DNA of 40,863 bases from the NCBI GenBank assembly GCA_022340665.1, contig JAJDNM010000009.1, positions 1 through 40,863 of the forward strand. Direction: 5' to 3'. Source of the stretch: Acidobacteriota bacterium. Lineage in GTDB: Bacteria > Acidobacteriota > Thermoanaerobaculia > Thermoanaerobaculales > Sulfomarinibacteraceae. Positions 13,549 to 39,302 of the stretch are shown piece after piece. Every line of letters begins with the position of its first letter. Position 1 is the stretch's first letter. The notes under the pieces are model-generated. The model searched no databases. It saw nothing but the letters and a program-made list of their open reading frames with translations, and was not told where the DNA came from. Both the position numbers and the translations under genes were made by a program.

Positions 13549-13556
13549 GATGGAAG

Positions 13557-13626
13557 GATACTCGATGCTGGATGCTTGATGCTGGATGCTTGATCCTGGA
13601 TGTCGGATATTGGATGTTGGATCGAC
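13557..13626. repeat. Heptamer tandem repeat, GATGCTG family, 10 units
   Basis: Ten 7-bp units in strict register: GATACTC, GATGCTG, GATGCTT, GATGCTG, GATGCTT, GATCCTG, GATGTCG, GATATTG, GATGTTG, GATCGAC. The central units are nearly identical and the edges are worn. It sits immediately upstream of the minus-strand IMPACT gene and would lie in its leader. Confidence 0.9.
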
Positions 13627-16134: not shown

Positions 16135-16150
16135 TCGTGCCACGGGCGGA

Positions 16151-16199
16151 AACGTGAAACGTTAAACGTTGAACGTTGAACGTTGAACGTCGAACGTTC
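16151..16199. repeat. Heptamer tandem repeat, AACGTTG family, 7 units
   Basis: Seven 7-bp units in register: AACGTGA, AACGTTA, three identical AACGTTG, AACGTCG, AACGTTC. It fills most of the 76-bp gap between two convergent genes. AACGTT is itself a palindrome, so either strand can form small hairpins. Confidence 0.9.
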
Positions 16200-23761: not shown

Positions 23762-25371
23762 AGGCTTCGCGCCTGGTTCTGCTGCTGGCCGCGGTACTCT
23801 TCATCTGCAACATCTGGGGCTACGATCTGTGGGCTCCTGACGAGCCGTTCTTCGGCGAAGGCGCCCGTGAAATGCTGGTCGACGGCCACTGGCTGGTGAC
23901 CTACGTCAACGGCAAGGTCAACACCCACAAGCCTCCGTTCTTCTTTTGGTTGATCGCGCTCCTGTCTCTGCCCCTTGGCAGGGTCACGTCCTTCACCGCC
24001 CGCCTGCCGTCCGCCCTCGCCTCCCTCGGCACCGTGGCGCTGGTCCTCCGCCTCGGTCGACGATCGGCATCCGAGCGTACAGCGGTCCTCGGGGCGTTCA
24101 TGCTCACGACCACCTATCTCTTCTGGGACAAGGCGCGCTCGGTGCAGATCGATGCCGTCATGTGCTGCCTCATCTGGGTCGCCCTATCAGTTTTCGATTC
24201 GTGGCGCTCGGGTGACCTCGAAGGCCGCCGCGCCGGTTGGATGTTCTGGGCGGCCGCGGCTCTTGCGGTGCTTGCCAAAGGACCGGTTGGCCTCCTGCTT
24301 CCGCTCGGAGTCGCCCTCACGACGCTCGCTTTCGACCGCGAGATTGGCCGCTGGCGCGATTTCGCGCCCTTCACCGGGCCCATGCTCTTCGCCGCGATCT
24401 GCGGCGTGTGGGTGGTAGCGACCATGTTGTGGGGGCCGGCCGAGTACTCGGTGTGGGGAGCGCTCAAAGAGCATTTCGTCGACCGGGGAATCCACGGAAT
24501 GCACCACGCCCAGCCGTGGTGGTACTACGCCAAGGTCCTGCCTCCCCAGCTTCTGCCCTGGACCTTCCTCGTCCCAGGCGCGATGGTTTATGCCTGGCGC
24601 CGGCGCGACCGTACCGATCGCTTCCTTTTGACCACCGTCATATTCGTCGTCCTCTTCTTCTCCATCTCGACCGAGAAGCGAACCCTCTACGTGCTGCCCG
24701 CCTTCCCGGCATTCGCCCTGATGACGGCTCGCTTCGTGGGCGCGGTGCTCGGGTGGGAGGAAGGCCCTGCGATGTCGCGACGGTGGGTCACCGCAGGGCA
24801 GTCATTTCTCGCCGGCCTGCTGATCCTCCTGGGCTTGGTCGCACCGTTCGCTGCGCAGAGAATCGATGAGGTGCCATCGTGGGTCTTCTTCGTGCTGTCC
24901 GGCCTCCTCCTCGCGGCCGGCGTGGCGACGCTCTGGGCGGTCGTCAAACGACACGACCTCGGTGCAGCAGTGGCTCCGGGAATCGCCTTCGCGGTCGCCT
25001 ATCTCTTCGTCTCAGTCACCGTGTATCCAATGGTGAACACCTTCAAATCTGGACGCGAGTTTGCCGAAATCATCGCCGAGGAAACAGCCGCCTCGCGAGC
25101 GGCAGGCCACGAGGTACTGGCCTTCGATCTCGGTAATCTGCCGATCCACTACGCCTTCTACACGGACGGCGTCTACACCATCGAGACAAATGATGCTGGT
25201 GATCTGGCGCGCCATCTCGACTCGGATGACCGGGTGTTGGGCATCGCCAATGCCGATCGGCTCGATGAGTTGCCGCAGGAGATCCAGGATCACCTGCAGA
25301 TCATCGCCACAACCAGCGCCAGCCGGCGAAACGTGGCGCTGATCGCCAATCGCCCTCCCAGCCCAAGTTGA
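23758..25371 (+). CDS. ArnT/PMT-like membrane glycosyltransferase
   Basis: A 537-residue integral membrane enzyme of the GT39/GT83 (PMT/ArnT) superfamily that transfers a sugar from a polyprenyl-phosphate donor outside the inner membrane. The N-terminal helix is followed by the diagnostic acidic loop WAPDEPFFGEGAREML (catalytic Asp-Glu pair) and THKPPFFFWL, then about ten more hydrophobic segments and a soluble tail of about 115 residues. GTG 23758 overlaps the asnB stop as GTGA, so the genes are translationally coupled. Acceptor could be lipid A, a glycan or a protein; not readable. The stop codon lies inside a heptamer repeat. Confidence 0.88.
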   Translation: MKASRLVLLLAAVLFICNIWGYDLWAPDEPFFGEGAREMLVDGHWLVTYVNGKVNTHKPPFFFWLIALLSLPLGRVTSFTARLPSALASLGTVALVLRLGRRSASERTAVLGAFMLTTTYLFWDKARSVQIDAVMCCLIWVALSVFDSWRSGDLEGRRAGWMFWAAAALAVLAKGPVGLLLPLGVALTTLAFDREIGRWRDFAPFTGPMLFAAICGVWVVATMLWGPAEYSVWGALKEHFVDRGIHGMHHAQPWWYYAKVLPPQLLPWTFLVPGAMVYAWRRRDRTDRFLLTTVIFVVLFFSISTEKRTLYVLPAFPAFALMTARFVGAVLGWEEGPAMSRRWVTAGQSFLAGLLILLGLVAPFAAQRIDEVPSWVFFVLSGLLLAAGVATLWAVVKRHDLGAAVAPGIAFAVAYLFVSVTVYPMVNTFKSGREFAEIIAEETAASRAAGHEVLAFDLGNLPIHYAFYTDGVYTIETNDAGDLARHLDSDDRVLGIANADRLDELPQEIQDHLQIIATTSASRRNVALIANRPPSPS

Positions 25372-25393
25372 GAGTTGAGAATCGAGAGTTCTC
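25366..25393. repeat. Heptamer repeat, AGTTGAG family, 4 units
   Basis: Units AGTTGAG, AGTTGAG, AATCGAG, AGTTCTC in register. The first unit contains the TGA stop of the glycosyltransferase. It is the left arm of an inverted pair with the array at 25430-25464. Confidence 0.8.
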
Positions 25394-25429
25394 CACATCC
25401 CACCCATGGAGTCCGCGAGGGCGGTCGGG

Positions 25430-25464
25430 AACTCTAAACTCTCAACTCTTCACTCTCAACTCAA
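25430..25464. repeat. Heptamer repeat, AGTTGAG family inverted, 5 units
   Basis: Units AACTCTA, AACTCTC, AACTCTT, CACTCTC, AACTCAA, the reverse complement of the AGTTGAG family. The array covers the stop codon of the DUF302 gene. Together with 25366-25393 it can form an imperfect long hairpin around a 36-nt loop, which could end transcription from both sides. Confidence 0.8.
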
Positions 25465-30505: not shown

Positions 30506-30739
30506 TTAATCCGAGAACTCCTTCTTCACCTCTTTGGTTGCCTTCTTGACGTCCTTCTTGACCTCATTCGTCTTCTTTTTGACGTCCTTGGCGGCCTTGT
30601 TTGCGGCGTCCTCCGCCTTGTCGAGCGGACCGGTCGAAGTATGGGCATCGACTACGTCGCCAACGACTCCCATGTCGTCAACCGCCTTGTTGACCGTTTT
30701 TCTCGCCGTGTGTTTCGCCGCACCTTTAACGACTCCCAT
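30506..30739 (-). CDS. Small lysine-rich LEA-like protein, 77 residues
   Basis: A 77-residue protein with an excellent GAGGAGG site before ATG 30739. The C-terminal half is made of 11-residue units: DKAEDAANKAA (40-50), KDVKKKTNEVK (51-61) and KDVKKATKEVK (62-72). Eleven-residue amphipathic repeats rich in Lys, Ala, Glu and Thr are the hallmark of group-3 LEA proteins, which protect against drying and osmotic stress. No cysteine, aromatic core or signal peptide. The frame is open upstream, but that part is antisense to the methyltransferase coding strand reading and carries no family signal. LEA assignment is inference from the repeat; a DNA-binding basic tail is an alternative. Confidence 0.72.
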   Translation of the reverse strand: MGVVKGAAKHTARKTVNKAVDDMGVVGDVVDAHTSTGPLDKAEDAANKAAKDVKKKTNEVKKDVKKATKEVKKEFSD

Positions 30740-30800
30740 CGTTGCCTCCTCTATTCGATAATGAGTTTCGTTACTATAACATATCGCATTCCTCGGCTCG

Positions 30801-31598
30801 TCAGTCGACTCTGCCGCGTACCGCCCACGCGCCGGCGATAAGGCGAATCGAACCGTCAGAATCCCTGGGAAGCGTCTCGTCGAGATGGTTTTGAAGGGCA
30901 GTCCGAGCCTCGCCGTCGAGCGAGGCAACATAAGAGGGTGCCGGCCCCGGACCTCCCAGAAAGGGTTTCCAGTACTCGTCGAAGGAGGCAAAATCCGTCG
31001 CGATATCGAGCGGTTCACAGCGGACTGAACGGAGGCCTGCTTCGCGAAAAAGGCTGGTGAGATCGTTCGGCTCGCATATCGGGAATCGGCTGCCTTCATC
31101 GAGCTCCGCCGCTTTCGGATCGACCCGCAACGCAGCGTCCCAGAACAGACGAAGGAACTCCATGCGGTCCGAATAATCCCAGACGCACGACGAAATCGTC
31201 CCATCGGTCGCAGTTACGTCTTTCATTTCCGAAATTGAACGGTCGGGATCCGGAAAGAAATTGAGCGCAAGCAACGATGTCACGCTTCCGAAACCGCCGT
31301 GACGGCTCGGCAATGAACCGGTTCCGCCGATCTCAAACGAAGCACACTCGCTCGACCAATGAGTTCGAGCATACTGGATGTAGGTCTCCGCTGGGTCGCA
31401 GCCGACGACAGACGCCGGGTTTGCGAGCCCGCAAATCGCGGCCGTCAGGGCGCCGGTCCCGCAGCCGACGTCGAGCCAGTGAGCATCTTCCGGGACTTCG
31501 AGCCATTCAACGAACCTCGGCGCCAGCTCACGGCTCCACCGCCCCATGAAGTCCTCGTACGCTGACCCGTCATTCCACTTATCAGAGACGTTTTCCAT
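30801..31598 (-). CDS. Class I SAM-dependent methyltransferase
   Basis: A 265-residue methyltransferase with motif I WLDVGCGTGALTAAI near residues 42-56, an acidic residue closing the second strand (VVGCDPAE), and LLALNFFPDPDRSISEMKDV for the later motifs. An N-terminal WSRELAPRFVEWL segment resembles UbiE/small-molecule methyltransferases. I place the start at ATG 31598 because GGAGG lies 11 nt upstream; a TTG at 31616 is possible but would sit in that site. Substrate unknown. It follows the copper ATPase gene by 68 bp on the same strand; a functional link is not evident. Confidence 0.85.
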   Translation of the reverse strand: MENVSDKWNDGSAYEDFMGRWSRELAPRFVEWLEVPEDAHWLDVGCGTGALTAAICGLANPASVVGCDPAETYIQYARTHWSSECASFEIGGTGSLPSRHGGFGSVTSLLALNFFPDPDRSISEMKDVTATDGTISSCVWDYSDRMEFLRLFWDAALRVDPKAAELDEGSRFPICEPNDLTSLFREAGLRSVRCEPLDIATDFASFDEYWKPFLGGPGPAPSYVASLDGEARTALQNHLDETLPRDSDGSIRLIAGAWAVRGRVD

Positions 31599-31666: not shown

Positions 31667-34096
31667 TCAGATCCTCACCCGTCGCAGGCGCAAGGCGTTG
31701 CCGATCACCGACACCGAGCTGAAGCTCATGGCCGCGGCAGCGATGATCGGGCTCAGGAGCAGCCCGAACGCCGGGTACAGGACTCCCGCGGCGATCGGAA
31801 CCCCGATGCTGTTGTAGACGAAGGCGAAGAAGAGGTTCTGTCTGATATTGCGCATGGTGGCGCTGCTGAGCCTCCTCGCACGAACGATGCCGCGCAGATC
31901 ACCCTTGACCAGCGTGACGTCGGCGGACTCCATCGCGACGTCGGTGCCGGTTCCCATGGCGATACCGACGTCCGCTTGCGCCAGAGCGGGCGCGTCGTTG
32001 ATGCCATCGCCAGCCATCGCAACCACAGAGCCCTCGTCCTGAAGATGGCTCACGACCTCCGCTTTCTTCTCCGGAAGGACCTCGGCATGTAGCTCGTCGA
32101 TGTCGAGCTGGCGGGCAACCGCCTTTGCGGTCGTCCGATTGTCGCCGGTGAGCATCACAACCCTGATTCCCTCGTCGCGGAGTCGCCGAATGGCGTCAGG
32201 GGTGCTTTCCTTGATCGGGTCCGCCACTCCAAGAAGCCCAACGACATTGCCCTCAACTGAAACGAACATGACGGTCTGACCGTCCCCGCGGTATTTCTCG
32301 GCACGCTTCACATCTGATTCGTCGAGGTCCGCACGATCTTCCATGAGGGCTCGGTTGCCGATCGCGACCGAGCGACCACCAATGTTTCCGACCACCCCCT
32401 GGCCCGTTATCGACTTGAAACTGCCGGCTGACTCGAGAGTAACCCCTCGCTCGCGGGCGCCTTCGACGATGGCCGCCGCGAGGGGATGTTCGCTGCCGCG
32501 TTCCAGGCTGGCCGCATCGCGAATAAAGTCTGTCGATGCATTGCCGTTCAGTGCCTCGGCAGTGACCAAACGCGGCTTCCCTTCAGTCAGGGTGCCGGTC
32601 TTGTCGACCACCAGGGTGTCGACCTGGCGCATGACCTCGATCGCCTCGGCGTTCTTGAAGAGGACGCCCGATTCGGCCCCCTTCCCGGTCGCCACCATGA
32701 TCGACATCGGCGTCGCCAGACCGAGGGCGCACGGACAGGCGATGATCAAAACCGCCACAGCGTTGATGAGGGCAAAGGCCATGGCAGGCGCCGGCCCCCA
32801 GATCGCCCACACCACGAACGTGATCACCGCGCTCAAAACAACTGCAGGGACAAAATAGCCTGCAACGACATCCGCCAACTTCTGGACCGGCGCCCTGCTA
32901 CGCTGCGCCTCCGCCACCATCTGCACGATCTGCGACAGCATCGTGTCGGCGCCGACTCGTTCGGCCGTCATCACCAGCGAGCCAGTGCCGTTGACGGTGG
33001 CTCCTATGACGGCGTCACCCGGTCCTTTCTTGACCGGGACCGGCTCTCCGGTGACCATCGATTCATCGACCGAGGTCGAACCGCTCTCCACCGAGCCGTC
33101 GACCGGCATTTTTTCACCCGGTCGTACGCGAAGGTGGTCGCCCACCTGCACCTCGTCGAGCGGCACATCCTCTTCGCTACCGTCGGGGTTGACCCGTCTC
33201 GCCGTTTTCGGCGCGAGCCCGAGCAATGCCTTGATGGCGGCCGAGGTCTCGCTCCGGGCCTTGAGCTCGAGCACCTGGCCGAGCAGCACCAAGGTAGTGA
33301 TCACCGCCGCCGCCTCGAAGTACACCGCCACGTTGCCGGTATCGTCCCGGAAGGAGGCCGGAAAGATCTCCGGCAGCACTGCGGCAATCACACTGTAGAC
33401 ATAGGCCACCCCGACGCCCAGTCCTATCAGGGTGAACATGTTGAGGTTCCAGGTCACGATCGATCGCCAGCCACGCACGAAGAAGGGCCAGGCGCCCCAC
33501 AGGACCACCGGCGTCGCGAGAGCCAACTCGATCAGATGCAGCCTACTGGGCGTCGCCAACCATTCGAACGAAACCCCCGGGATGAGCGCCCCCATGGCAA
33601 CGAAAAGGAGAGGCAGGGACAAACACAGGCTCACCCAGAACCGCCTTCGCATGTCTCGCAGCTCCGGGTTCTCCTCGTCCTCGATGTCCACCGTTCGGGG
33701 CTCGAGCGCCATGCCGCACTTCGGACAGCTTCCTGGATGGTCCTGCACCACCTCAGGGTGCATCGGGCAGGTGTACTCGACGCGAGTGGCGAGTCGGCCC
33801 GGGCTGACTGTTTCCAGGGCCATCCCGCAATCGGGGCAATCGCCCGGGCCGTCCTGCCGCACCTCGGGATGCATCGGGCAGGTGTATCCACTGCGCGCGC
33901 TGGAAGCTGCTGCGTCGTGGCGGTGTACTTCTGCTTCCTGCTCCTTCGTATCCACGCCGAGGTACCTCGCAGGATGTTGAGTGAATCGCTCCTTGCAGCT
34001 TTCCGAGCAGAAGTGATAGGTCGTCCCTCGGTGCTTGACGGAAGGCTTTCTGGCTTCCGGATCGACTTCCATTCCGCAGACCGGGTCGGTAGCCAT
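31667..34096 (-). CDS. copA: Copper-exporting P1B-type ATPase with YHS and two HMBD domains
   Basis: An 809-residue ATP-driven exporter of Cu(I) (or Ag) from the cytoplasm. The N-terminus has a YHS domain ([18 protein letters not shown], residues 1-47) and two heavy-metal-binding modules of the form YTCPMHPEV...CPxCGMAL (71-93 and 108-131) instead of the usual GMxCxxC fold. Then follow eight transmembrane segments with CPC (454-456), phosphorylation motif DKTGTLT (Asp498), HP (537-538) and GDGIND. The last two helices carry YNSIGVP and MSFSS, matching the P1B-1 copper signature (YN-x4-P and M-x2-SS). It is the last ATPase of the cus-type operon. SilP-like silver export is also possible. Confidence 0.95.
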
Positions 34097-34166: not shown

Positions 34167-34526
34167 TCACGACGAGCCCGCACTGGCCTGAAGGGCGCGT
34201 GAGTCCTCGTCTCCCGTGCGGATCTTCACAGCGCGCTCCACCGGTGTGGTGAACACAATGCCGTCACCGGGGTCGCCTGTACGTGCAACCTGAACGATGA
34301 CCTCGGCGGCGTGGTCAGCGCAATCCTCCTCACAGACGACCTCTAGCTTGGCCACCTCCGCCGTCTTCTTCAGCTCGCTCGGCGCCAGGGTGAAGAGGTA
34401 TGGTTCATACCCGTAGCCGACGCCGTGGACCCGGGTCACAGTAATCCCGGGCGCCCCTGCTTTGCGAAGTGTACGGATGACGTCGTCGACCTTCGAAACT
34501 CGAATGTACGCTTTGATTTCTCTCAT
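34167..34526 (-). CDS. PII-like regulator coupled to cusA
   Basis: A 119-residue PII-superfamily protein: MREIKAYIRVSKVDDVIRTLRKAGAPGITV at the N-terminus, a T-loop region with GYGYEPYLFTLAP, then a KLEVVCEEDCADHAAEVIVQVARTGDPGDGIVFTTPVERAVKIRTG C-terminus. The GDGIVF and final IRTG segments are PII-like, but the T-loop lacks the GlnB uridylylation context. Its ATG overlaps the cusA stop (ATGA). A divergent PII group found next to heavy-metal RND pumps has been described; this fits it. Two extra cysteines sit in KLEVVCEEDC and could bind metal. Function is unproven; a metal- or nucleotide-sensing role is inferred. Confidence 0.88.
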   Translation of the reverse strand: MREIKAYIRVSKVDDVIRTLRKAGAPGITVTRVHGVGYGYEPYLFTLAPSELKKTAEVAKLEVVCEEDCADHAAEVIVQVARTGDPGDGIVFTTPVERAVKIRTGDEDSRALQASAGSS

Positions 34527-37500
34527 TGTTCGTCCCTTACAGCCACAGCTGAGCCCGCCTCGCTGTCGGTGTGAGGAAACAGCGGTGTACGGGTGAGTTT
34601 GACCGAACGCCAGATGAAATAGATCGCCGGAAAGACGATGAGCTCCGCGATGAACGACGTGATCACGCCCCCGACCATCGGTGCCGCGATGCGTCGCATG
34701 ACGTCGGCTCCGGCGCCCGCGGCCCAGAGCACCGGGCCCAGCGAGAACAGAATCGTCATCACGGTCATCATCTTCGGGCGGATTCTCTTGACCGCCCCGT
34801 GGTCGACGGCGTCCGCAAGGTCGGCGTAACTCGCCATCTTCCCTTCGGTCGACCACCGCTCGAAGGCGATGTCGAGATACAGCAGCATCACGACACCCGT
34901 CTCTGCCGACAGCCCGGCGAGAGCGATCAACCCGACCCAGACGGCGATCGACCAGTTGTAGTGGAGGAAGTAAAGAAGCCACATTGAACCGACAACCGAA
35001 AACGGTATCGCCGACAGCACGATCGCGGTCTTGATAATCGATTTCGTGTTCAGGTAGAGGATGAGAAAGGTCAGAAACAACGTGATCGGGACGATGATGA
35101 CCAGCCGCTGCTTGGCCCGCTGCATGTACTCGTACTGGCCGGACCAGAAGATTGTGTAGCCGGAGGGCAGCTCGACATTCTCCGCGACCACTTGCTTGGC
35201 CCGTTTGACCCACGTCCCGACGTCGATGCCGCGAAGGTCGACATACACCCAGGCGTTGGGGCGTGCATTCTCGGACTTGATCGCGGGCGGACCCTGATGG
35301 ACGCGGATCGTGGCGAGCTGGGTCAGCGGGATCTGAGCACCGTTCGGGGTCGGCACCAGTACGTCGCCAAGTGCCGCAACGTTGTCCCGCAACTCGCGCG
35401 GGTAGCGGAGGTTGATCGGGTAGCGCTCGAGCCCTTCGACGGTCATGGACACGTTCATACCGCCGACAGCGGACATGATCACATCTTGAACATCGCCGAC
35501 CGTCAGGCCGTAGCGCGCCGCGGCCTCGCGGTCGATGTCGAAGTCGAGGTAGTTGCCGCCCATTACGCGCTCCGCGTACGCCGAAAGCGTGCCCTCGAGC
35601 GGCTTGACGACTGCTTCCACCTCCTTACCGATGCGCTCGAGCTCCGACAGATCCGGCCCGGCGATCTTGATGCCGACCGGGGTCTTGATCCCGGTTGAAA
35701 GCATGTCGATGCGAGTTTTGATCGGCATCGTCCAGGCGTTGGTCAGACCCGGGAACTGGATCGCGCGGTCGAGCTCCTCGACGAGCTCGTCCTTGGTCAT
35801 TCCGGTTCGCCATTCGGAGGGATCTTTGAGAACGATGGTGGTCTCGATCATCGACAGTGGCGCCGGGTCGGTTGCAGTCTCGGCGCGGCCGATCTTGCCC
35901 AACACCGACTCCACCTCGGGGAACGTCGCGATGATCTTGTCGGTCTGCTGGAGGAGCTCCTTGGCCTTGGTGATGGAGATGCCGGGAAAGGTCGTTGGCA
36001 TGTAGAGGAGGTCGCCCTCCCACAGAGGCGGCATGAACTCCGAGCCCATCTTCTGCATCGGAATCCAGGTGACCGCAACGACGATAATGGAAACGATCAC
36101 CACGGCCCACCGCCAGCGGAGGGCCAGGTTGAGGAACGGTGTGTACACGCGCTGCAGGATCCGAGAGACCGGATGATTCTCCTCCGAGTGGATCTTGCCG
36201 CGAACGAACCAGTACATCAGGACCGGGATGACGGTTACCGCGACCAGTGAGGCAAGCCCGACCGAGTACGTCTTGGTGAACGCCAGCGGCTTGAAGAGCC
36301 GGCCCTCCTGGGCCTGCAGGGTGAAGATCGGCATGAACGAGACCGTGATGACGAGCAGGCTGAAGAAGAGTGTCGGTCCGACCTCCTGCGCCGAACGTAA
36401 GATGATCTCGAAGTGGGATCTTCGGCCTTGCCACTCCTCAACATGCTTGTGGGCGTTTTCCACCATGATGATGGCCGCGTCCACAAGGACACCAATTGAG
36501 ATCGCGATACCTCCGAGCGACATGATGTTGGCGCCCAAACCCTGGGCCTTCATGACGATGAAGGCGAGAAGGATCGAGATCGGGATCGAGACGATGGCGA
36601 CGAACGCCGAGCGAAAGTGGAAGAGGAAGACGATGCAGACCAACGCGACGATGATCGATTCCTCGATGAGAGTGTGGGTCAAGGTCTCGATCGAGCGGTG
36701 AATGAGCGCAGTACGATCATATGCCACCGAGATCTCGACGTCGTCGGGCAGGCCCTGCTGAAGCTCCGCCAGGCGCTCCTTGACCCGCGCAATCGTCGAC
36801 AGCGTGTCCGAGCCGTAGCGGACTACGACAACGCCACCTACCGTCTCTCCCTCACCGTTCCATTCTGCCAGCCCGCGCCGAATTTCCGGACCGAGAGTTA
36901 TGTTGGCGATGTCCTTGAGCAGTATCGGCGTGCCGCCGGGTCCCGAACCGAGTGGAATCTCCTCGAGGTCCTTGATTTCCTTGACGTAGCCGAGGCCACG
37001 GACCATGTACTCCCGTTCGCCGGTCTCGATCAGGCGACCGCCGACGTCATTGTTGGAGCGCTTGATCGCCATCCTGATCTTGGCAAGTGGAATGTTGTAG
37101 GCACGAAGTTTGACCGGATCGACCTCAACCTGGTACTGGCGGACGAATCCACCAATCGAGGCGACCTCCGAGACTCCCTCCACCGACATGAGTCCGTACT
37201 TCAGGTACCAGTCCTGGTAGGAGCGCAGATCGGCAAGCGACCGTTCGGGCGAGTTGAGGACGTACATAAACGCCCAGCCGACTCCGGTGGCGTCCGGTCC
37301 CAACTGGGGAGCGACCCCGTCCGGAAGTTGACCCGCCATACCGCTCAGATACTCCAGGACTCGGGAGCGGGCCCAGTACATGTCGGTACCGTCCTCGAAA
37401 ATGACGTAGACAAAGCTGAATCCGAAGAAGGAGTATCCGCGAACCACCTTGGCGAACGGAACTGAGAGCATCTTCGACGCGATCGGGTACGTGATCTGAT

Positions 37501-37687
37501 CCTCAACCACCTGTGGCGCCTGGCCCGGGTACTGCGTGTAGATGATGACCTGGACGTCCGAGAGATCGGGAATGGCGTCGAGGCGAATCGACTTCATCGC
37601 CCAAATGCCACCGAGGATGGCAAACACCACACCTATGACGACCATGAACTGGTTTCTGAGCGACCATTCGATGATCCGGTTCAGCAT
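34523..37687 (-). CDS. cusA: CusA-type heavy-metal RND efflux pump
   Basis: A 1054-residue inner-membrane proton-driven transporter that moves Cu(I)/Ag(I) across the envelope with CusB and CusC. Motifs: N-terminal helix MLNRIIEWSLRNQFMVVIG, LDAIPDLSDVQVIIYTQYPGQAPQVVEDQITYP, and TM4 GGIAISIGVLVDAAIIMVENAHKHVEEW, which closely matches Cu/Ag-type pumps rather than CzcA. A second RND half follows with AGLSAETGVVMLLYLD. The start is ATG 37687 with GGGAGG upstream; the frame is open 57 nt further but lacks family residues. It ends with a 4-bp overlap on the PII-like gene. Gene order cusC-B-A matches known copper/silver operons. Confidence 0.95.
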   Translation of the reverse strand: MLNRIIEWSLRNQFMVVIGVVFAILGGIWAMKSIRLDAIPDLSDVQVIIYTQYPGQAPQVVEDQITYPIASKMLSVPFAKVVRGYSFFGFSFVYVIFEDGTDMYWARSRVLEYLSGMAGQLPDGVAPQLGPDATGVGWAFMYVLNSPERSLADLRSYQDWYLKYGLMSVEGVSEVASIGGFVRQYQVEVDPVKLRAYNIPLAKIRMAIKRSNNDVGGRLIETGEREYMVRGLGYVKEIKDLEEIPLGSGPGGTPILLKDIANITLGPEIRRGLAEWNGEGETVGGVVVVRYGSDTLSTIARVKERLAELQQGLPDDVEISVAYDRTALIHRSIETLTHTLIEESIIVALVCIVFLFHFRSAFVAIVSIPISILLAFIVMKAQGLGANIMSLGGIAISIGVLVDAAIIMVENAHKHVEEWQGRRSHFEIILRSAQEVGPTLFFSLLVITVSFMPIFTLQAQEGRLFKPLAFTKTYSVGLASLVAVTVIPVLMYWFVRGKIHSEENHPVSRILQRVYTPFLNLALRWRWAVVIVSIIVVAVTWIPMQKMGSEFMPPLWEGDLLYMPTTFPGISITKAKELLQQTDKIIATFPEVESVLGKIGRAETATDPAPLSMIETTIVLKDPSEWRTGMTKDELVEELDRAIQFPGLTNAWTMPIKTRIDMLSTGIKTPVGIKIAGPDLSELERIGKEVEAVVKPLEGTLSAYAERVMGGNYLDFDIDREAAARYGLTVGDVQDVIMSAVGGMNVSMTVEGLERYPINLRYPRELRDNVAALGDVLVPTPNGAQIPLTQLATIRVHQGPPAIKSENARPNAWVYVDLRGIDVGTWVKRAKQVVAENVELPSGYTIFWSGQYEYMQRAKQRLVIIVPITLFLTFLILYLNTKSIIKTAIVLSAIPFSVVGSMWLLYFLHYNWSIAVWVGLIALAGLSAETGVVMLLYLDIAFERWSTEGKMASYADLADAVDHGAVKRIRPKMMTVMTILFSLGPVLWAAGAGADVMRRIAAPMVGGVITSFIAELIVFPAIYFIWRSVKLTRTPLFPHTDSEAGSAVAVRDEQ

Positions 37688-37733
37688 GGTGGCGCCTCCC
37701 ATTCGTGCACGGACACGGACGTGGGCGCCAGAA

Positions 37734-39302
37734 TCACGACCCACCTCCCGCGCGTTTCTCGGCGATCATCTTCTGGATCGCCTCCTGGAGATTCGATTCA
37801 GAGTCGATCAGGAACTGAGCTGACGTCACGATCTCTTCGCCGTCCGACAGACCGTCGATCACCTGAGTGAAGCCGTCGCCCTCCGGTCCCAACCGCACGT
37901 CGCGCGGTGCGAACTGACCGTCACCAAGCGCGACGATGATCACGTTGCGTTGCCCGGTTCTGAGAACCGCCTGTGACGGAACGGCGATCACATTTCTGGC
38001 GGCCACCGGCTCGAAAAGCACGGTAGCGTACATGCCCACCCGCAGCCTGTTGCGGCTATTGTGGACCTCGAGGGTGAGCTGGACGGTGCGGGTTTTCTCC
38101 GACACCTCCGGTTCGATGTAGCGGACCCGCCCGTGAAACGTCTCGCCCGGGAAATAGGTGAGAGTTATGGTCGCCGTGCTGCCGACATCGAGCCACGGCA
38201 ACTGGTCCTCGAAGATCTCGACCGTCAGCCAGAGGTCGGAAAGGTCAGCGATGTGCAGCAGTTCCATGCCGGGACGAGTCGCCATACCTTCTAGACCCGG
38301 CATCCGTTTCATCACCACACCTCTCGCGGGAGACAGAATCTGCAGGGTTCGGAAGACCTCGCCCGTTTCCTCGAGCCGCCGAATCTGCTCTTCACTGATA
38401 TCCCAATAGGCAAGTCTCTGACGCGCCGCTTCGAGCAGGGCCTCGGCGCGGCGTCTGACGTCTCCCGGTGCATCGGTCAGGCTGGCGGCGTACTGCTTTG
38501 CCGCCAGCAGCTCCTGCTCCGTCTGCACCAGCTCCGGCGCGTAGATCTCGAATAACGGTTCACCCTTCTTCACCGGCTGTCCGATGTAGTTGACATAGGT
38601 CTCCTCGATGAACCCCGGATATTTGGTGGTCACCGAAACCATCTTTTCCTGGTCGTAACCGAGGTATCCGACGGTGCGGATTTGGTGTTTGATATCGCGT
38701 CGCCTCACGACCTCGGTCAGAACATTCATGTTCTGCTGCACTTCCGGATTGATGGTGACGACCGCGCCCCCGGCTGCCGCTGACTGGGCTTCATCGGCGT
38801 AGACCGGAACGTAATCCATTCCCATCTCGTCCTTGCGCGGCACCGGCGACGTGATGGTCGGGTCCATAGGGTTGCGGTAGAAGAGGATGTCGCGCTCAAC
38901 GGCGGGCGGTTTAGCGTCGGGAGCCTCTCCCTCTCGAAGCGGCACCAGATCCATGCCACAGATCGGGCATTGACCCGGCGCATCCTCGATCACCTGCGGA
39001 TGCATCCCGCAGGTCCATAACTCTTCTCCGTGCCCTTCTCCGTCTTCGTGCCCGACGTGCGCGTCTTTCGTCAACCCAAGCCAGTCATCGACCGGGCTGA
39101 TTCCGACCGGATCCACCACCAGCACCAGCATCACCGCCGCCCCAACCAGCACCCATAGAATGGCCTGCAGAATGGCCCTGCCCTGCTCGTTGGAACGGCG
39201 GGCGGCATATATGCCGCCCCTGCAGAAGGCTGATTCCGCAAGGTGGTCGTCGTCGGGGCGGGATATATTCCGCCCGTGGCGCGTTTCGAAGATCTTTTTC
39301 AT
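37734..39302 (-). CDS. cusB: CusB-type membrane-fusion protein with metal-binding modules
   Basis: A 522-residue periplasmic adaptor linking CusA to CusC. After an odd first 42 residues, a membrane anchor (AILQAILWVLVGAAVMLVLVV, 43-63) is followed by a metal-binding module WTCGMHPQVIEDAPGQCPICGMDL (96-119) and a second, degenerate one (YRNPMDPT, KDEMGMDYVPVY, 142-168). Then come the barrel-sandwich and alpha-hairpin (residues 195-330: VTTKYPGFIEETYVNYIGQPVKKGEPLFEIYAPEL) and C-terminal beta domains. The ATG overlaps the cusC stop (ATGA) with GGTGGAG upstream, so this start is secure. Residues 10-35 are encoded by a palindromic element (39200-39275), described separately. Confidence 0.93.
   Translation of the reverse strand: MKKIFETRHGRNISRPDDDHLAESAFCRGGIYAARRSNEQGRAILQAILWVLVGAAVMLVLVVDPVGISPVDDWLGLTKDAHVGHEDGEGHGEELWTCGMHPQVIEDAPGQCPICGMDLVPLREGEAPDAKPPAVERDILFYRNPMDPTITSPVPRKDEMGMDYVPVYADEAQSAAAGGAVVTINPEVQQNMNVLTEVVRRRDIKHQIRTVGYLGYDQEKMVSVTTKYPGFIEETYVNYIGQPVKKGEPLFEIYAPELVQTEQELLAAKQYAASLTDAPGDVRRRAEALLEAARQRLAYWDISEEQIRRLEETGEVFRTLQILSPARGVVMKRMPGLEGMATRPGMELLHIADLSDLWLTVEIFEDQLPWLDVGSTATITLTYFPGETFHGRVRYIEPEVSEKTRTVQLTLEVHNSRNRLRVGMYATVLFEPVAARNVIAVPSQAVLRTGQRNVIIVALGDGQFAPRDVRLGPEGDGFTQVIDGLSDGEEIVTSAQFLIDSESNLQEAIQKMIAEKRAGGGS
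39200..39275. repeat. Pair of 20-bp palindromes inside the cusB start
   Basis: GGGCGGCATATATGCCGCCC (39200-39219) is a perfect palindrome. GGGCGGGATATATTCCGCCC (39256-39275) is a near-copy, differing in one position on each side of the shared ATATAT core. They are 36 nt apart, forming a 76-bp doublet like a REP/BIME unit, read through in frame in cusB. No second copy was found in the window. Confidence 0.85.

Follow-up and report, generated by a model that had tools for sequence, protein, structure and literature searches.

The BIMEs of enterobacteria are extragenic mosaics of REP units of alternating orientation; the palindromic doublet described here shares this arrangement, although its unit sequences are different. 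GTAG-type REPs are palindromes with a GTAG tag that form inverted doublets, prefer intergenic positions and are restricted to a genus (PMC3733652; for REPINs, PMC3116915). A minority of GTAG REP dimers was found to lie wholly within ORFs, spanning 20–30 residues, while many REPs at ORF N-termini were suspected to be extragenic, with mis-called start codons (Di Nocera et al. 2013, PMC3733652). REPINs are inverted REP doublets, mostly extragenic, that form one long hairpin when single-stranded (Bertels and Rainey 2011, PMC3116915). Among the RPEs of Rickettsia, RPE-4 and RPE-6 are tagged with CGTC, and CGTC repeats are described as having no associated transposase gene (Ogata et al. 2002, as cited in PMC3733652).

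The window analysed here (40,863 nucleotides; contig JAJDNM010000009.1 of the acidobacterial assembly GCA_022340665.1) contains a palindromic doublet inside a cusB-like gene. The relevant features are the following.

34523..37744, minus strand: cusA-like RND pump (ACR_tran), downstream gene of the operon (ORF and Pfam)
37734..39302, minus strand: cusB-like periplasmic adaptor (HlyD_D23, HMBD), 522 amino acids (ORF, Pfam and orthologues)
39299..39302, minus strand: ATGA overlap of the cusB start codon and the cusC stop codon
39299..40666, minus strand: cusC-like outer membrane factor (OEP), upstream gene of the operon (ORF and Pfam)
39200..39219, no strand: REP unit 1, perfect 20-bp palindrome GGGCGGCATATATGCCGCCC
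39220..39223, minus strand: spacer-side tag of unit 1 in eroded form, CTGC on the plus and GCAG on the minus strand (matches GTAG/CTAC at 3 of 4 positions)
39224..39251, no strand: spacer between the two tags, 28 nt
39252..39255, plus strand: spacer-side tag of unit 2 in eroded form, GTCG (matches GTAG at 3 of 4 positions)
39256..39275, no strand: REP unit 2, near-perfect 20-bp palindrome GGGCGGGATATATTCCGCCC

Elsewhere in the window, the gene for a copper P-type ATPase includes a tandemly duplicated HMBD segment (33702–33886; 74% identity), and 33-bp repeats are present at 30519–30605 in a reverse-strand ORF (30506–31204).

The sequence-only reading had reported two 20-bp palindromes 36 nt apart, with a common ATATAT core, translated as CusB residues 10–35 ahead of the membrane anchor. 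The coordinates, sequences, core and gap were all confirmed, but only the palindrome at 39200–39219 is perfect; in unit 2, positions 7 and 14 (G/T) do not pair, and the unit differs by one base from the family form GGGCGGGATATATCCCGCCC. The reading frame of the cusB ORF agrees with the proposed translation, the doublet corresponding to codons 10–35 (about 26 amino acids, containing the peptide NISRPDDDHLAESAFCR). Unit 1 is identical to both units of another doublet in the same genome (G000:C99:7466/7516). From the outer left to the outer right side, the tag positions match GTAG/CTAC in 0, 3, 3 and 1 of 4 bases; at the base frequencies of the window, the probability of both inner matches arising by chance is about 0.002. 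Folding of the doublet as single-stranded DNA gives a single long hairpin (z = -4.3). Its spacer did not match that of any other copy, and an Rfam search of the window gave no match.

The genome, a 3.95-Mb draft in 153 contigs, was searched by patterns. At least nine further doublets with spacers of 30–33 nt and GTAG...CTAC ends were found, the core search locating them on contigs C62, C77, C94 (two), C99 (two), C104, C95 and C20; degenerate doublets were also present on C49 and C91. The usual layout is GTAG-GGGCGGCATACATGCCGCCC-TTGATCG...(30–33 nt in all)...CGATCAA-GGGCGGGATATATCCCGCCC-CTAC, and in most copies GTAG is followed by GGGCGG..CCGCCC. This search for further copies, proposed in the sequence-only reading, gave far fewer hits with reversed controls: the core pattern (up to three mismatches) matched 48 sites per strand against 14 for the control, the tagged pattern 19 and 16 sites against 0 and 2, and the tagged unit (up to one mismatch) 16 sites against none. 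An 18-nt core with up to two mismatches was found at 19 sites. The other doublets lie in short gaps between genes; the cusB copy is the exception and the only coding one. When the tagged pattern was sought in 40 genomes, tagged units were detected in that of the window and in two of its four congeners, and in none of the 35 genomes from other genera. The majority layout in the window's genome has its tags outward. The cusB copy has the other orientation, with tag remnants on its inner sides, no intact GTAG tag and a 36-nt spacer that is longer than those of the outward type. Inward-facing doublets with perfect tags were found once in each of two congeners (G004:C326 and G002:C97). The copies on C77, C91, C95 and C99 (position 3256) are preceded by a similar segment of 50–60 bp, made up of a GGATTTC-type repeat, a C-run and GTGGAAGCGAAGGATCTGTAGG, which suggests some REP doublets to be part of a larger composite.

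The repeats are therefore palindromes with GTAG at one end, present in multiple similar copies per genome, mainly extragenic and arranged as inverted doublets that fold as one hairpin, as in GTAG REP families. The genome also encodes Y1 transposases. One of them, a 183-aa RAYT (G000:C120:2319-3069; locus L184), is flanked by GTAG-GGGAGGGGTTTATCCCCTCCC and GTAG-GGGCGGGGTTTATCCCCGCCC, GTAG REPs of a sister family whose loop is TTTAT; this locus is a REPtron in an acidobacterial genome. A second RAYT-type gene, on C114 (L029, L186), belongs with a different GTAG family, pairs of GTAG-GCGGGTCGTTTACGGCCCGCC / GTAG-GCGGGTCCTTCAGGGCCCGCC being present on both of its flanks. Given the dispersed copies, their restriction to the genus and the presence of a RAYT gene flanked by sister GTAG REPs, the cusB doublet is a GTAG-type REP doublet (REPIN/BIME-like) in the minority orientation, and not an operator. 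Since none of the RAYT genes found in the genus has the ATATAT-type REP on its flanks (those of the congeners' RAYT-type genes were read), we infer the mobilizing enzyme from the family type: the repeats would have been dispersed as single-stranded hairpins by a RAYT-type transposase (TnpA-REP).

As in the intragenic dimers of Di Nocera et al. (PMC3733652), an inverted GTAG-tagged pair lies wholly inside an ORF while most copies are extragenic. The REP sequence and the host (Acidobacteriota, Thermoanaerobaculia-like) are different, and the start codon and the absence of the segment in relatives, which bear on that paper's main doubt about N-terminal REPs, are documented here. The window's genome resembles those with REPINs (PMC3116915) in that most of its other copies are such inverted doublets, but it has about ten of them rather than hundreds, and the cusB copy lies in a gene with its tags inward-facing and eroded. 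The likeness to Rickettsia RPEs or to a REP doublet that had been proposed holds for the REP doublet, and for the RPEs as an analogy, both being palindromic repeats that have entered functional proteins without breaking the frame (Ogata et al. 2002, as cited in PMC3733652). Membership of an RPE type is ruled out by the tag, which is GTAG and not CGTC; the family described here, moreover, has a single coding copy.

The claim that this segment has no counterpart in normal CusB proteins was borne out by close orthologues. The best named orthologue loci belong to MAGs of Thermoanaerobaculales/Acidobacteriota, which points to the group of the host organism. Homology to the closest orthologues begins at residues 35–38, and the tail preceding the AILW motif, 46 residues long here, has 18 and 30 residues in congeners G004 and G001, respectively; the cusB tails of these two congeners contain no palindromes. 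Distant CusB proteins in the orthologue comparison were checked for the 26 residues conserved as protein despite disrupted palindromes, and no such case was found.

These observations favour the insertion of a GTAG-type REP doublet in frame in the cytoplasmic tail of CusB, where it is translated and tolerated, its tags having since decayed; the probability assigned to this reading is about 0.87. The other copies in the genome, the absence of the segment in close relatives and the conservation of the upstream start codon all support an insertion in frame. An inverted GTAG REP pair, of the kind scattered through the intergenic regions of this Thermoanaerobaculia-like genome and of its congeners, would have entered an unconserved and presumably pre-existing tail upstream of the membrane anchor, and would be read as some 26 extra CusB residues. 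It would be tolerated because the tail has no conserved sequence, and with its tags decayed after insertion the cusB copy is probably no longer mobile. We infer the insertion to be neutral.

Most orthologues have about 10–22 tail residues before the membrane helix, while six, including the CusB of the window, have long tails of about 38–51 residues. In three of the long tails other than that with the REP copy, heptamer repeats are present in frame. The cusB tail of congener G003 (L050) contains a GGATTTC heptamer array, CGATTTCGGATTTCGGATTTCGGATTTCGGATTTT, read as residues RFRISDFGFRI; all five genomes of the genus contain this motif, with between 11 and 274 pattern matches per genome, against none for the reversed control. 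In two related genera, the tails of G009 (L031; CCCTTCACTCTTCACCCTTCAC) and G008 (L032; CCCCTCACGCCTCACCCCTCAC) contain translated heptamer repeats of the CCCTTCA and CCCCTCA types, each motif being present at a few other sites in its own genome. The remaining two long tails (L033, L036) are of unique sequence in their own genomes and were not seen to be repeat insertions; since they lack recognizable repeats, an insertion cannot be concluded from tail length alone. The cusB tail looks like a permissive site repeatedly colonized by genomic repeats. That dispersed repeats land there again and again and become protein, and that the altered tail length has an effect on the metal pump on which selection can act, is a stronger claim and rather doubtful. 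Heptamer arrays are also present outside cusB in the window: inverted ones between genes at 25366–25462 (AGTTGAG.../...AACTCTC), and others at 13556–13622 (GGATGCT) and 16150–16198 (AACGTTG).

The same inserted doublet might instead have been kept for an effect on RNA, its hairpins tuning how the cusCBA mRNA is translated or degraded, and with it the stoichiometry of the pump. It begins 27 nt into the cusB frame and would be co-transcribed with cusC, and REPs are thought often to act as RNA hairpins (PMC3733652). However, the predicted RNA fold at the junction was just mildly better than those of shuffled sequences (z = -1.7; 11 of 200 equally good), and the orthologues lack a hairpin of this kind, which makes such a role improbable.

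The sequence-only reading had offered a hidden promoter or operator as an alternative, in which the doublet would serve cusBA, or cusA alone, from within coding sequence, a dimeric regulator binding both palindromes. Two near-identical palindromes within a metal-efflux operon, with a start-to-start distance of 56 bp that permits looping or paired dimers, would suit this role. The other copies, however, adjoin unrelated housekeeping genes and not metal-efflux genes: those for Usp, Pth (peptidyl-tRNA hydrolase), CysS, MscS, an aminotransferase, an HDAC-like protein, an FAD oxidase, CoaX (type III pantothenate kinase), MgtE and a polyprenyl synthetase. The GTAG/CTAC tags and the distribution within a single genus are REP-like, the orthologues of cusB lack the sites, and the overlap of cusC and cusB means that no internal promoter is needed. 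The gene neighbours and the operon layout speak against this proposal, which is left with very little probability.

It is just as improbable that the doublet is untranslated, the true cusB start lying downstream and the upstream ATG being an annotation artefact. REPs that overlap N-termini are often suspected of reflecting mis-called starts (PMC3733652), and three ORFs of the genus have this look: the predicted N-termini at two C99 copies (L014) and at G004:C326 (L177) begin in a REP doublet and have plausible later starts, so these starts were probably mis-called. In cusB, however, the ATGA overlap with cusC was kept in 15 of the 16 loci inspected (that of the window included), and the codons that separate the doublet from the membrane helix include no ATG, GTG or TTG, the first later start codon in frame being a GTG at codon 51, within the helix. 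Together these two points speak strongly against a mis-called cusB start and, with the two congeners that lack the segment, indicate that the doublet is translated; by the predicted frame, any CusB that includes its anchor has to contain the segment. The cusB copy would thus be an in-gene REP in the strict sense, one that follows the true start codon. Chance palindromes in a GC-rich gene, with nothing but the high G+C content of the region in their favour, are refuted almost beyond doubt by the shuffles (two matches without mismatch in the window against a mean of 0.03, with up to three mismatches allowed) and by the core and tagged-pattern searches, which found identical cores elsewhere in the genome.

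The insertion of a REP doublet in frame in cusB is a rare kind of event that was already described in 2013, of which this case is an unusually clean example, and it leaves the known principles of REPs unchanged. Insertions of REPs in genes are mostly purged, in keeping with the name 'extragenic'. An in-frame copy with a conserved start codon, and with relatives lacking the segment, illustrates how selfish palindromes can become protein. Because unrelated dispersed repeats occupy the same tail in three other relatives, the finding suggests the pre-membrane tails of adaptor proteins to be permissive sites at which repeat DNA may become new coding sequence.
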